Positions 27,858-59,999 of a DNA stretch of 64,000 bases are shown piece after piece. The notes under the pieces were generated by a model that made no database searches, was not told where the DNA came from, and saw nothing but the letters and a program-made list of their open reading frames with translations. Both the position numbers and the translations under genes were made by a program. How positions within the stretch are numbered: the stretch's first letter is position 1; each line of letters starts with the position of its first letter. The stretch covers positions 1-64,000 of the forward strand of contig VGLJ01000004.1 in assembly GCA_016866775.1 (NCBI GenBank). The letters run 5' to 3'. The DNA comes from Candidatus Rokuibacteriota bacterium (GTDB taxonomy: Bacteria > Methylomirabilota > Methylomirabilia > Rokubacteriales > CSP1-6).

Positions 27858-27879
27858 CGGATCTCCCGTCCCGGCACTC

Positions 27880-27947
27880 GCGGAGCGCGCGGCTTCACGC
27901 CGCGCGCGGAGCGTGGGGGCGTGGGGGGCGCGCCTCGCGCCCCCCAA
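27880..27947 (+). repeat. Hairpin repeat family 2, full-length copy
   Basis: Order on this strand: GCGGA, a nine-base-pair stem (GCGCGCGGC with GCCGCGCGC) around loop TTCAC, the spacer GGAGCGTGGGGGCGTGGGG, then a ten-pair stem GGGGGGCGCG/CGCGCCCCCC around loop CCT. The copy at 59864-59933 (other strand) has the same order and sizes with different stem sequences. The element lies between the cupin stop and the LLM start. No T tract follows, so it is not a simple intrinsic terminator. Confidence 0.72.
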
Positions 27948-33275: not shown

Positions 33276-35018
33276 CTAGTCGCGGATGCCGTAGGTGTCT
33301 CGCGCCACCGCCGGCGAGATCACACCGTCCGCGAGGTCGCGCGCGACCAGCGCGCGATCCCGCGCGCGCGGGTCGCCGTAGCCGCCGGCGCCCGGCGTGA
33401 TGATCGCGACCTTCTGCCCCGGCCGCAGGATCGCTCGCGCGCGCACCGCCGGCTCGACGTCGGGTCCGTACTCGATGCGCGCGGGCGCGCCGTCGTGGCC
33501 GCCGAAGAGACCCCACGGCGCGGAGCGTCGGCGCGCCGAGTGGACGAACGCGTGGCAGTCGTGGTCCTCGGCGCGGACCTCGCGCACGATGCCCATCCCG
33601 CCGCGCCACGTGCCCGGGCCGCCGGAGTCGTCGACCAGCGCGTAGCGTTCGACGACCAGCGGATACTCCGCTTCGAGGGCCTCGACCGGCAGGTTCGACG
33701 TGTTGGTGACGTGCACGTGAACGCCGTCGAGCCCGTCCTTCGTGGCGCGCGCGCCGAAGCCGCCGCCGATCGTCTCGAGATAGACGTAGTAGGCGCCGGT
33801 GCGCGGGTTCACGCCGCTGAACGTGCCCATCGCGCACGCGCCGTTGCACGCGGCGATGATCCGGTCGGGAATCGCCGGCGCGAGCGCGCCGTGAATGAGG
33901 TCGACCACACGCTGGCACGTCTCGGTGCGCGCGTTGACCGCGGCGGGCGCGACGCAGTTCAGCATCGTGCCTTCCGGCGCTGAGACGTGCACCGGCCGGA
34001 ACGCGCCCGCGTTCGCCGGGATGTCCGGGCCGACGAGCGTCTTCACCGCGTAGTAGACGGTGGCGAGCAGCCCCGTCCACACGAGGTTGAGTCCCGCGCG
34101 CACCTGCGGCGGGCTCTCGAAGTGGAGGAAGATCTCGCCGCCCTTCACCTCGACGCGCGTCTTGAAGAGCTTCTCCTCCGGCATCTCGTCGGTGTCGAAG
34201 CGGTCCTCGAAGGTGTACACGCCTTCGGGAATGGTCGCGATGCCCGCGCGGGTCATGCGCTCGGTCGCGTCGAGCAGCGCGTCGCTCGCGGCGAGCACGA
34301 GCGCCGTGCCGTACTTCGCGCACAGCGACTGGAAGCGCTGGATGCCCTGGCGGTTCGCCGCCATCTGCGCGCGGAGGTCGTTGAGCCGCTCGCGCGGCAC
34401 CTGGCAGTTGAGGAGGATGAGATCGAGGACGTCCTGCTGGAGCACGCCTTCGCGATAGAGCCGGACCGGCGGTATGCGCAAGCCTTCCTGGTAGATGTGC
34501 GCGTGGCCGCGGTCCACGAAGTCCGCGTGGTGCGCGATGTTCGTCGCCCACGCGACGACCCCGCCGTCGACGACGATGGGCTCGATCATCACGATGTCGG
34601 GCAGGTGCGTCCCGCCGCCGGTGTAGGCGTCGTTGCCGAGGAAGACGTCGCCCGCGCGGATCTCGTCCATCGGATGCCGCGCGGTCACGTGCTCCACGAC
34701 GCCCATGAGCGAGCCGAGGTGCATGGGGATGTGCATCGCCTGGCACAGCGTGCGGCCGCGCGCGTCGAAGAGGCAGGTGGAGCTGTCGCGCCGCTCCTTC
34801 ACGTTGGTCGAGTACGCCGCGCGCACGAGCGTCTCGCCCATCTCGTCGACGATCGACGACAAGGCCGATCCGATCACCTCGACGGTTGCCCCGGAGAGGG
34901 GCTTTGCCCCCCTTCCGGCGGTCGTCGCACGCCCCGAGGCGTGCTCCTCCCTGCCTCCCCCCAGGACAGGAATTGCGCCGGCGAAGCCGGCGCTCGAAAG
35001 CGGCTGATCAGTGCTCAT
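33276..35018 (-). CDS. hyuB: Hydantoinase B/oxoprolinase beta-like subunit with in-frame repeat insertion
   Basis: A 580-residue HyuB family protein. Family landmarks: ALSSIVDEMGETLVRAAYSTNVKERRDSS (in parts, VDEMGETLVRAAYSTN and KERRDSSTCLFD), GDVFLGNDAYTGGGTHLPDI, PVHVSAPEGTMLNC and GGGFGARATKDGLDGVH. Normal relatives begin almost directly with the TVEVI motif. Here eight residues (MSTDQPLS) are followed by about 37 residues (SAGFAGAIPVLGGG to GAKPLS) that are the translation of a three-hairpin repeat also found between genes at 42846-42958. The frame is open throughout. The start is fixed by an 11-base overlap with HyuA. Acts with HyuA in ATP-dependent amide or lactam hydrolysis or N-carboxylation. 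Confidence 0.92.
   Translation of the reverse strand: MSTDQPLSSAGFAGAIPVLGGGREEHASGRATTAGRGAKPLSGATVEVIGSALSSIVDEMGETLVRAAYSTNVKERRDSSTCLFDARGRTLCQAMHIPMHLGSLMGVVEHVTARHPMDEIRAGDVFLGNDAYTGGGTHLPDIVMIEPIVVDGGVVAWATNIAHHADFVDRGHAHIYQEGLRIPPVRLYREGVLQQDVLDLILLNCQVPRERLNDLRAQMAANRQGIQRFQSLCAKYGTALVLAASDALLDATERMTRAGIATIPEGVYTFEDRFDTDEMPEEKLFKTRVEVKGGEIFLHFESPPQVRAGLNLVWTGLLATVYYAVKTLVGPDIPANAGAFRPVHVSAPEGTMLNCVAPAAVNARTETCQRVVDLIHGALAPAIPDRIIAACNGACAMGTFSGVNPRTGAYYVYLETIGGGFGARATKDGLDGVHVHVTNTSNLPVEALEAEYPLVVERYALVDDSGGPGTWRGGMGIVREVRAEDHDCHAFVHSARRRSAPWGLFGGHDGAPARIEYGPDVEPAVRARAILRPGQKVAIITPGAGGYGDPRARDRALVARDLADGVISPAVARDTYGIRD
34891..34999 (-). repeat. Hairpin repeat family 1, copy inside hyuB
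   Basis: Three short hairpins in a row. In plus-strand order: GGGGCTTTGCCCC, then CTTCCGGCG, a second hairpin around ACGCCCCGAGGCGT, then CTGCCTCCCCCC, and finally a third hairpin GCGCCGGCGAAGCCGGCGC followed by TCGAAA. The copy at 42846-42958 has the same parts in the same order with different stems in hairpins 1 and 2. It lies fully inside the N-terminal coding part of hyuB and is translated. Confidence 0.7.
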
Positions 35019-37059
35019 CTGCGATCACCAGGTTCGCAAACTGATCGACACGCGTCCGCTGGCCTGGCAGCAGCAACGTTGTCGCATCCATTTGTTCGAT
35101 GATTGCCGGGCCCACGAACTCGTGCCCGGCACCGAGGCGCTCACGGTCGTACACCGGGCACACGACGAGCCCGTCCGATTCGTCGAGCCACACCTCGCGG
35201 TGAGACACGATCGCGGCGCTGACCGCCGTCGTCGCGCGCGGGAACGGGCGAAGCTCGGCGCGGCGGACCGCGCCCACCGCTTCCAGGCGGAACGTCACGG
35301 CCTGGATCGGCTCCTCCGCCGCGATGTAGCCGTAGATCTGCTCGTGCGCACGCTCGAAGCCCGCGGTCAGCTCCTTCACGAGCGCGGCGGGCGACGGCGC
35401 GTCCGGCCACGGGACCGGCAGCTCGTAGTTCTGCCCCGCGTAGCGCATGTCGAGCGTCCGCCGGAGCGTGCGCGCCCCGGGCGCGATCCCTTCGCCATCG
35501 AACCATGCCGCCGCACGCGCCTCCAGCTCGGCGAACGTGTCGAGCATCGCTGTCACGGCATCCGGCGTGAGCCGCATCAGGCGCGTCTGCGCGTAGTTCG
35601 TCTTGAGATCGCTGAGCAGGAGCCCGAGCGCGCAGAGGATGCCGGGATGTCGGGGCACGAGCACGCGCGGGATCTCCAGCTCGCGGGCGAGCCGCGCGGC
35701 GTGCAGCGGGCCGGCACCACCGAACGCGACGAGCGTGTAGTCGCGCGGGTCATGGCCGCGCTGGACCGAGATCACGCGGATCGCCTTGGCCATCGTCGCG
35801 GTGACGACGCTCACGATGCCTTGCGCGGTCGCCGTCGCGTCGAGGCCGAGGCTCTTCGCGAGCCGCACGATCGCCGCATCGGCGCGTGTGCGATCGATCG
35901 GCATGCGGCCGCCGAGCAGATGCGTCGGGTTCAGCGTCTGGAGGACGACGTTCGCGTCGGTGACCGTCGGTTCGTCGTTGCCGAGGCCGTAGCAGACCGG
36001 GCCCGGGACGGCGCCGGCGGAGCGCGGCCCGACCTTCAGGAGTCCGCCGGCGTCGACGAACGCGATCGAGCCGCCGCCCGCGCCGACCGTGTGGATGTCG
36101 AGCGCCGGGGTCTTGAGCGGGTAGCCGTGCACGTCGAGCTCGCCGGCCAGCTTCGGCCGGCCGTCCTCGATCAGCGCGACGTCGGTCGACGTGCCGCCCA
36201 TGTCGAAGGTGATGAGGTTGCCGAAGCCCGCGAGACGTCCGACTTCGAGGCCGCCGACGACGCCTGTCGCGGGGCCCGAGAGCACCGTGCGCACGGGCTG
36301 GGCGCGTGCCGCCTCGAACGACATCACGCCGCCGTTGCTCTGCGTGATGTGCGGCGTGACGCGGATCCCGGCCTCGCGCAGTCGCGGGCCGAGCCCGGCG
36401 AGATACCCCGCCATGACCGGACCGAGATACGCGTTCACCACGACGGTCGACAGGCGCTCGAACTCCCGGAACTCGGGCGCGACCTCGTGCGAGCACGTCA
36501 CGAAGACGCCGGGCAGCTCCTCTTCGACGATCCGGCGCACGCGCTGCTCGTGGGCGGGATCGACGTAACAGTAGAGGAGACAGATCGCGAGCGCGCGGAT
36601 GTCGGTGTTCTTCAGGCGCCGGACGACGGCGCGGACCTGCGTCTCGTCGAGGGGCTTGTCGAGACGGCCGTCGTGGCGGAGGCGCTCGGCGATCTCCAGG
36701 CGCAGCCGCCGCGGCACGAGCACGCGCGGCTTGTCGGCCTGGAGATCGTAGAGGTGCGGCCGGCGCTGGCGGCCGATCTCGAGCAGATCGCGAAAGCCTT
36801 CGGTCGTCAGCAGGGCGGTCGGCGCGCCGCGGTCCTGGATGAGCGCGTTCGTGGCGACCGTCGTGCCGTGTCCGAAGTAGCCGACGTCGCCGGGCGTGGC
36901 GCGCGCTTCGCCGAGCGCCTCGACGGTTCCGCGCGCAATCGCGTGCGATGGATCGTCGGGCGTGCTCGGGACCTTCCAGACCCGGATCGCGCCGGTAGCC
37001 TCGTCGACGAGGCACACGTCCGTGAACGTCCCGCCCGCGTCGACGCCGACACGCCACAT
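35008..37059 (-). CDS. hyuA: Hydantoinase A/oxoprolinase alpha-like subunit
   Basis: A 683-residue member of the HyuA family, an ASKHA-fold ATPase. The phosphate-1 motif is VGVDAGGTFTDVCLVDE; other landmarks are GHGTTVATNALIQ, VLSGPATGVVGG, LITFDMGGTSTDVALIEDG (phosphate-2), and VAFGGAGPLHAARLARE. Together with HyuB it would cleave or carboxylate a cyclic amide (5-oxoproline, N-methylhydantoin, or ketone carboxylation in acetone/acetophenone-carboxylase relatives). It starts six bases after the ThDP enzyme gene stops and overlaps hyuB by 11 bases. Full length for the family. Confidence 0.95.
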   Translation of the reverse strand: MWRVGVDAGGTFTDVCLVDEATGAIRVWKVPSTPDDPSHAIARGTVEALGEARATPGDVGYFGHGTTVATNALIQDRGAPTALLTTEGFRDLLEIGRQRRPHLYDLQADKPRVLVPRRLRLEIAERLRHDGRLDKPLDETQVRAVVRRLKNTDIRALAICLLYCYVDPAHEQRVRRIVEEELPGVFVTCSHEVAPEFREFERLSTVVVNAYLGPVMAGYLAGLGPRLREAGIRVTPHITQSNGGVMSFEAARAQPVRTVLSGPATGVVGGLEVGRLAGFGNLITFDMGGTSTDVALIEDGRPKLAGELDVHGYPLKTPALDIHTVGAGGGSIAFVDAGGLLKVGPRSAGAVPGPVCYGLGNDEPTVTDANVVLQTLNPTHLLGGRMPIDRTRADAAIVRLAKSLGLDATATAQGIVSVVTATMAKAIRVISVQRGHDPRDYTLVAFGGAGPLHAARLARELEIPRVLVPRHPGILCALGLLLSDLKTNYAQTRLMRLTPDAVTAMLDTFAELEARAAAWFDGEGIAPGARTLRRTLDMRYAGQNYELPVPWPDAPSPAALVKELTAGFERAHEQIYGYIAAEEPIQAVTFRLEAVGAVRRAELRPFPRATTAVSAAIVSHREVWLDESDGLVVCPVYDRERLGAGHEFVGPAIIEQMDATTLLLPGQRTRVDQFANLVIADEH

Positions 37060-42406: not shown

Positions 42407-42844
42407 ATGCCGAAGATCAAGCACATCGCCATCTCGTGCCAGGACGTCGACAAGACCGCGAAGTTCTACATCGAGGTGTTCGGGCTGAAAGAGGTCGGCA
42501 AGATCGACAGCATGGGCGCCAAGGGGTACTACCTGACCGACGGCGACCTCAACCTCGCCATCCTGCATTTCAAGAACGACGCGGTGGCCGGCGTCGAGCG
42601 CGGCACGGGATGGAGCGGCATCCACCACTTCGGCTTCCAGGTCGAGAACCTGGAAGACATCGCCGACAAGCTCAAGACGGCGGGCGCTCCGCGCCGTGAC
42701 GACATCAACGAGGCGCTCGGTGTCGGCCAGGGCCTGCGCCACGGCGGCAACGTCGAGGTGAAGTACACGGCGCCGGACGGCGTCACCGTCGACGTCTCGG
42801 AGACCGGCTGGGTCGGCACGCCGAGCTTCAGCCCGAAGGTCTGA
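42407..42844 (+). CDS. VOC-family (glyoxalase/dioxygenase-like) protein
   Basis: A 145-residue protein of the vicinal-oxygen-chelate fold. It begins IKHIAISCQDVDKTAKFYIEVFGLKEVG, here in parts: HIAISCQDVDKTAKFY and VFGLKEV, typical of the first beta-alpha-beta unit. The second unit has IHHFGFQVENLEDIADKL and VEVKYTAPDGVTVDVSETGW, so His and Glu ligand positions are plausible (His at the first strand; Asp/Glu late). Substrate unknown. CAGGAGGAGAGGCC precedes the ATG. A three-hairpin repeat begins two bases after its stop. Confidence 0.88.
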   Translation: MPKIKHIAISCQDVDKTAKFYIEVFGLKEVGKIDSMGAKGYYLTDGDLNLAILHFKNDAVAGVERGTGWSGIHHFGFQVENLEDIADKLKTAGAPRRDDINEALGVGQGLRHGGNVEVKYTAPDGVTVDVSETGWVGTPSFSPKV

Positions 42845-42845
42845 C

Positions 42846-42958
42846 CCGGAGGGGGATTTCATCCCCCTTCCGGCGCTGCAACGGAGCGGGCCGCGCGGCC
42901 CGCTCCGTTTTCGCTGCCTCCCCCCGAGAAATTGCGCCGGCAAAGCCGGCGCTCGAAA
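42846..42958 (+). repeat. Hairpin repeat family 1, intergenic copy
   Basis: Same parts as the copy inside hyuB: hairpin 1 (GGGGGATTTCATCCCCC), CTTCCGGCG, hairpin 2 (GGAGCGGGCC with GGCCCGCTCC), GCTGCCTCCCCCC, and hairpin 3 (GCGCCGGCAAAGCCGGCGC) followed by TCGAAA. Stems 1 and 2 differ in sequence from the other copy but remain complementary, while the linkers are nearly identical. It fills the space between the VOC and SMP-30 genes. Confidence 0.72.
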
Positions 42959-42975
42959 CCGCATTCACGGTGCGC

Positions 42976-59863: not shown

Positions 59864-59933
59864 ATGGGGGGCCGCCAGAGGCGGCCCCCCAAGCCCCCAC
59901 GCTCCGGGCCCGGAATCAATCCGGGCCCTCCGC
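59864..59933 (-). repeat. Hairpin repeat family 2, full-length copy
   Basis: Read on the minus strand: GCGGA, a nine-pair stem (GGGCCCGGA with TCCGGGCCC) around loop TTGAT, then GGAGCGTGGGGGCTTGGGG, then an eleven-pair stem GGGGGGCCGCC/GGCGGCCCCCC around loop TCT, ending CAT. Same order, spacer and sizes as 27880-27947, but stem sequences differ while remaining paired. It lies directly after the ThDP gene. Further hairpin-prone GC DNA continues to about 59995, without a gene. Confidence 0.72.
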
Positions 59934-59999
59934 GAATGCCGCAGCGCCTCCGGCGGCCCTCCAAGACCCCCGGCGCTGCCCTGGCCACGGCGCTCGACC

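Follow-up and report, generated by a model that had tools for sequence, protein, structure and literature searches.

A dispersed three-hairpin repeat at stop codons, with a copy in frame near the start of hyuB in a Candidatus Rokuibacteriota genome

Known palindromic repeats and the hyuB copy

Palindromic repeats that lie in frame within protein genes have been described for several bacterial elements. The palindromic elements of Rickettsia (RPEs) are repeats of 100–150 bp, some of which are found in frame in unrelated protein genes, where they are tolerated (PMC10969869, PMC3767692), and RPE families have been described as encoding a conserved peptide (PMC10969869). REP elements, which are also palindromic, sit mostly downstream of genes, often touch or supply the stop codons, and are sometimes found in open reading frames, N-termini included; copies inside open frames have been published for many species, with the warning that many of the N-terminal ones are really located upstream of the true start (PMC3733652). 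REPs of E. coli within 15 nt of a stop codon stall ribosomes and act on translation (PMC12306157). ERIC and the enterobacterial RU elements are ~127 bp long and located at gene ends, forming C-terminal fusions in which the normal stop is removed, and intragenic ERICs are also known (PMC2759123). Debate on in-frame palindromes has centred on Rickettsia, an AT-rich parasite with a reduced genome; the repeat described here shows the same outcome in an unrelated, GC-rich order.

The window analysed here, a stretch of 64,000 nucleotides, belongs to Candidatus Rokuibacteriota, a group of soil and groundwater bacteria, and the genome that carries it (G000) is assembled in 159 contigs. The start of hyuB and the end of hyuA share 11 nt, and the hyuB reading frame takes in one complete copy of a dispersed repeat with three hairpins, which is in frame and has no stop codon:

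33276–35018, minus strand: hyuB (Hydantoinase_B, PF02538), open frame of 580 aa from ATG 35018
35008–37059, minus strand: hyuA, with its TGA at 35010–35008, 7 nt ahead of the element
34889–35000, minus strand: repeat copy in hyuB, matching covariance-model positions 1–111 (113.6 bits, E 1.3e-19, with a model built partly from this copy itself)
34998–34890, minus strand: conserved core of the hyuB copy, its limits set by an alignment of 50 copies

Other copies in the genome match the hyuB copy at the level of plain DNA, by up to 90% over ~120 bp, and therefore the match is not a chance one. Translated in the hyuB frame, the insert reads LSSAGFAGAIPVLGGGREEHASGRATTAGRGAKPLSG, and the HyuB N-terminus as a whole reads MSTDQP-LSSAGFAGAIPVLGGGREEHASGRATTAGRGAKPLSGA-TVEVI; at the junction the last residues of the insert and GA are common to both sides. 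The original prediction had described a palindromic repeat carried in frame by hyuB and encoding 37 residues, and it is borne out on both points, with ~37 residues between MSTDQP and GATVEVI. The Pfam Hydantoinase_B match covers HyuB residues 44–550, wholly downstream of the insert. Whichever of its six frames is considered, the element is open in 78–92% of copies, and we discarded frame openness as evidence for translation, since all frames of the element are usually open.

The closest hyuB ortholog, which is 82% identical and also has hyuA and hyuB as neighbours (G023), does not contain the insert. It begins MTVDPITVEVI, against MSTDQP-[37 residues]-GATVEVI in the window, and so agrees with the earlier expectation that removal of the element would leave an ordinary HyuB start; the extension, which relatives might have shared if it were an ordinary tail, is not found there. 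From parsimony with this one close ortholog we infer a gain here rather than a loss in relatives. Purifying selection acts on the body of hyuB (dN ~0.12 and dS ~0.57 against the same ortholog, averaged over both branches). The relative with the best hyuB match is itself a member of Candidatus Rokuibacteriota.

Structure, placement and classification of the repeat

The repeat is ~110 bp long and consists of three separate hairpins, which in the hyuB copy are:

34975–34993, minus strand: stem 1, GCGCCGGC-TTC-GCCGGCGC
34920–34951, minus strand: stem 2, GGGAGGAGCACGCC-TCGG-GGCGTGCGACGACC, with two tandem G.A pairs within the helix
34891–34918, minus strand: stem 3, CCGGA-A-GGGGGGC-AAA-GCCCCTC-TCCGG

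Among 26 copies, changes on both sides are found at 11 of the 34 pairs of the whole repeat, a count which none of 500 shuffles reaches, and this covariation signal is lost in slid versions. Stem 1 has such changes at 2 of its 8 pairs, with 98.6% of cells paired, and stem 2 at 6 of its 14, where the G.A positions are conserved while the surrounding pairs covary. In stem 3, 98.8% of cells are paired and a U-A to C-G change is seen in 10 of the 26 copies. Stem 2 is swapped in some copies for an unrelated, still complementary sequence, and it is missing from a short form of the repeat (~75 nt). At L121, L123, L124 and L129 the replacement for stem 2 is rich in A/T and forms a hairpin like that of a two-way intrinsic terminator. 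We also observed head-to-tail tandem pairs with a period of ~110 bp in one relative (G015 C52:8702-8922, C57:164129-164348 and C73:73901-74124), as well as brief duplications of the stem-3 end (GCGAAGCCCCCCTCCGAG) beside the element, at the right ends of L076, L160, L166, L175 and L187.

A plain DNA search of the genome located the repeat in at least 40 places, and a search with a covariance model built from 26 copies yielded ~50 clear copies, along with others that are short or decayed (83 at E ≤ 1). All genomes of the order that were searched, G000 and 38 others from four families, contain the repeat in widely varying copy number, and in other orders of the class there are 0–2 matches per genome. 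No Rfam family scored above its gathering threshold at either copy in the window, the phage, plasmid and viral collections searched held no match to the repeat and hence gave no vector, and among the papers found on Rokubacteria with palindromic repeats or MITEs none was relevant. The window also holds a different dispersed element, a pair of G/C-rich hairpins in inverted orientation and 83% complementary (27872–27929 and 59884–59941).

The original prediction missed the rule of placement at gene ends. With gene ends taken from a simple codon-based gene caller written for the analysis, 40 of 50 copies lie directly at a stop codon with at least one end. It is usually the stem-3 end that abuts: it lies within −2 to +3 nt of the stop of an opposite-strand gene in 33 of the 50 copies, whereas random intergenic placement would give ~2% (P ~1e-43). 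In 15 of the 50, the other end follows a gene on the same strand, a few bases after its stop. When gene calls are left aside, in 21 of 50 copies the letters at exactly the abutting position spell a reverse stop codon, compared with ~1 at most other offsets. The rule also holds in three relatives (G017, G035 and G023), and it is followed by the other copy in the window:

42844–42959, minus strand: second window copy, 90.8 bits, with its stem-3 end abutting the stop codon of the plus-strand gene 42407–42844

The hyuB copy, for all its position inside a protein gene, obeys the rule as well, as a full-length match 7 nt behind the hyuA stop. It is peculiar only in that the start of hyuB lies inside the end of hyuA, and the N-terminal HyuB tail is a by-product of gene-end placement.

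Two copies in one relative (G017) are absent from its congener (G035), where the flanks are 87–92% identical, and both sit exactly behind a stop codon; no target-site duplication was seen at these two filled/empty pairs. Neither G000 nor most members of the family gave a match to PF01797, the Y1 (RAYT-type) transposase that was looked for, and no candidate for an autonomous transposase partner of the repeat emerged. Between trpA and accD a copy is observed at the same place across genera of two families, in long and short forms (L185, L187, L189, L145, L194, L209, L206, L198). Some sites such as this one may last, the alternative being independent insertions at the same junction.

How does the repeat compare with the described kinds? 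Its copies in hyuB and in the genes for a BadF-type ATPase, FolD, Map and TrpA are in frame within protein genes, as with RPEs, but it belongs to another lineage with a different base composition, has no single conserved peptide, and most of its copies are non-coding and lie at stop codons, a distinction drawn from the published descriptions of RPEs. Like REPs, it sits at gene ends, touches stop codons and now and then lies inside a gene, although REPs of the GTAG and CGTC superfamilies consist of one hairpin of 20–40 bp, as opposed to three over ~110 bp here. We ruled out a GTAG-type REP with RAYT, as the GTAG tag is absent (the consensus ends are TTCGAG and CCGAGT) and G000 has no Y1 transposase. 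A CGTC-type REP would have an unpaired CGTC tag beside a stem of 8–9 bp starting with A-T pairs, whereas in our repeat the CG(T/C)C that precedes stem 3 has its last two bases paired and the stem is G-C rich. The repeat is MITE-like in being short, non-autonomous, dispersed and polymorphic between relatives, but its ends are not inverted copies of each other, so that terminal inverted repeats are lacking along with target-site duplications at the two filled/empty pairs, and it was not classed as a MITE. ERIC is one long palindrome of enterobacteria, in contrast to the three separate hairpins seen here, and the plasmid and phage records searched contain no match to our repeat. Since each of the RPE, REP and MITE kinds has at least one defining feature that was tested and that the repeat lacks, we treat it as a new family that behaves like them; it appears to be undescribed, in-frame palindromic repeats as such being already known from RPE, REP and ERIC. 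The comparison with Rickettsia made in the original prediction is valid in kind only, and in-frame palindromes are not peculiar to that genus (REP, PMC3733652; ERIC, PMC2759123).

Translation start and origin of the HyuB tail

Two starts come into question for HyuB, one on each side of the insert:

35023–35029, minus strand: Shine-Dalgarno sequence GGTGATC, a 7-nt match to the extended anti-Shine-Dalgarno, 4 nt before ATG 35018
34875–34877, minus strand: in-frame GTG (codon 48), the likeliest alternative start on the far side of the insert, downstream

The pairing predicted at ATG 35018 amounts to −12.3 kcal/mol, which is in the strongest tenth of genes in the window (median ~−7), compared with −5.5 kcal/mol at GTG 34877. 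On sequence grounds the element-coded tail is likely to be translated from ATG 35018. The insert itself has a codon score of −0.17 per codon, below the +0.36 of the hyuB body, and is therefore not adapted coding sequence. In the AlphaFold model of HyuB, residues 1–37 have no confident fold (pLDDT below 50) and the fold begins at residue 43. This argues weakly for tolerance of the tail, low pLDDT being expected in any case for residues that have no relatives in the alignment.

The best full explanation, to which we assign a probability of roughly 0.7, is that a stop-codon repeat was inserted behind hyuA and is read into HyuB as a tolerated tail. The element would be an order-wide, non-coding, ~110 bp three-hairpin repeat that enters, or survives at, sites immediately following stop codons, and the hyuB copy would have entered 7 nt past the stop of hyuA. 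As the hyuB start lies within the end of hyuA, this spot falls in hyuB after about codon 6. The net length gained would by chance have been divisible by three and without stop codons, as so GC-rich an element readily allows, and for this reason hyuB stayed open. The ribosome would most likely still start at ATG 35018, producing a HyuB with ~38 extra disordered residues, and the enzyme would tolerate them. Of the parts of this explanation, the repeat family with its structure and stop-codon rule, the absence from the ortholog and the fusions with other reading frames are shown; insertion at the hyuA stop codon is very probable, and the use of ATG 35018 and the tolerance of the tail are inferred.

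We see maintenance of the repeat as an RNA control element (a stabiliser of 3′ ends, a ribosome staller or a partial terminator), selected at each site and with the protein reading incidental, as possible, at somewhat under even odds. Covariation across copies, the strict placement at stop codons, the trpA-accD copy that occupies one position in genera from two families and the terminator-like A/T-rich stem 2 of some copies would all fit such a function, as would the ribosome stalling described for REPs of E. coli that lie no more than 15 nt from a stop codon (PMC12306157). However, both of the two copies tested are absent in the congener, G023 has no copy at hyuB and the number of copies varies widely between genomes, which suggests that many sites are dispensable. 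Control by RNA is, in any case, compatible with translation of the hyuB copy.

It is rather unlikely that the element is intercistronic, that is, that HyuB starts at GTG 34877 and the element forms untranslated hairpins between hyuA and hyuB. Such an arrangement would be in keeping with the 40 of 50 copies directly behind stops, the hyuB copy being 7 nt behind that of hyuA, with the open frames that run through the element commonly by chance, and with the warning in the REP literature about N-terminal repeats upstream of true starts (PMC3733652). Against it, the Shine-Dalgarno pairing of the GTG is weak, a start there would delete the D-P-I-T-x-E conserved at the HyuB start in relatives, and MSTDQP ahead of the insert resembles the ortholog start MTVDPI. 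The original statement that the 37 residues “must be made” was too strong, as the GTG is a possible if weak start; the upstream start on which it relied, ATG 35018, is the better one.

More speculative, and in our opinion doubtful, is the idea that the element is a structured, mobile molecule (RNA or single-stranded DNA) for which stop codons direct insertion instead of only tolerating it, and which steadily makes new protein tails across the order; insertion of this kind could work via termination, mRNA 3′ ends or an integrase, and HyuB-type fusions would arise at overlapping genes. An assembly artefact, with the repeat joining two unrelated stretches, might be feared for a multicopy repeat in an assembly of 159 contigs but is very improbable, as the ~110 bp element is shorter than usual reads and hyuA and hyuB are also adjacent in the relative. 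That the extension is an ordinary HyuB tail and not a mobile repeat, as the open frame in a conserved gene might suggest, can practically be dismissed, since the same DNA is found in dozens of unrelated places and in several frames, and the ortholog does not have it.

Copies in other protein genes

The best case for a translated element, stronger than hyuB, is a BadF-type ATPase (dehydratase activator), which in G000 has an internal in-frame copy (L076, G000:C93:10678-10786) and reads KIVGVDVGSTTVKAVVVDCDPHDR-[element]-TGEAPLRVIWQDYQRHNTKQ. An ortholog that is 82% identical reads MKLVGVDVGSTTVKAVVVADGKAGWQDYQRHNTRQ without the element, in agreement with four further orthologs (76–84% identity for the five). 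As the conserved start is upstream of the element and the remainder of the protein downstream, the element has to be part of the protein if the gene is alive; pN/pS in the body of the gene is 0.28–0.40. In the predicted structure the insert forms a loop between strands 12–19 and 69–77, bulging from a beta hairpin. The same loop holds a different in-frame repeat (WRGAAEGEPSGFAKAWRGAAEGEPSG) in another genome (L176, G002:C2), which suggests a tolerant site or a hot spot.

Fusions are also found at C-termini, among them those of the core enzymes FolD and Map. FolD of G000 (L244) ends RQLGGGLRPPPDGRHG..., while in most relatives the protein goes no more than a few residues beyond RQL; FolD of G003 (L245) has its own similar element tail, and that of G015 possibly part of one. 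Map of G000 (L264) likewise ends with an element tail, whereas most relatives stop soon after VLTRK. A different repeat-like tail is seen on Map of G038 (L267). TrpA of G017 ends in an element-coded tail, and TrpA of G000 stops ahead of its copy. The coding fusions use both strands and several frames, and thus the element has no peptide of its own. The repeat offers a natural series for studying the ways in which gene ends are found by repeats and random tails are accommodated by proteins, and it warns annotators that repeat DNA accounts for some protein ends, N- as well as C-terminal, in these bacteria.

HemW was considered as a second N-terminal case like HyuB and left as ambiguous, an in-frame TTG and a Shine-Dalgarno-like sequence being located inside the element. 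The HemW N-termini of relatives contain other short repeats (ADNP.., VVAGSAR..), at the hemW 5′ ends L221, L225 and L232.
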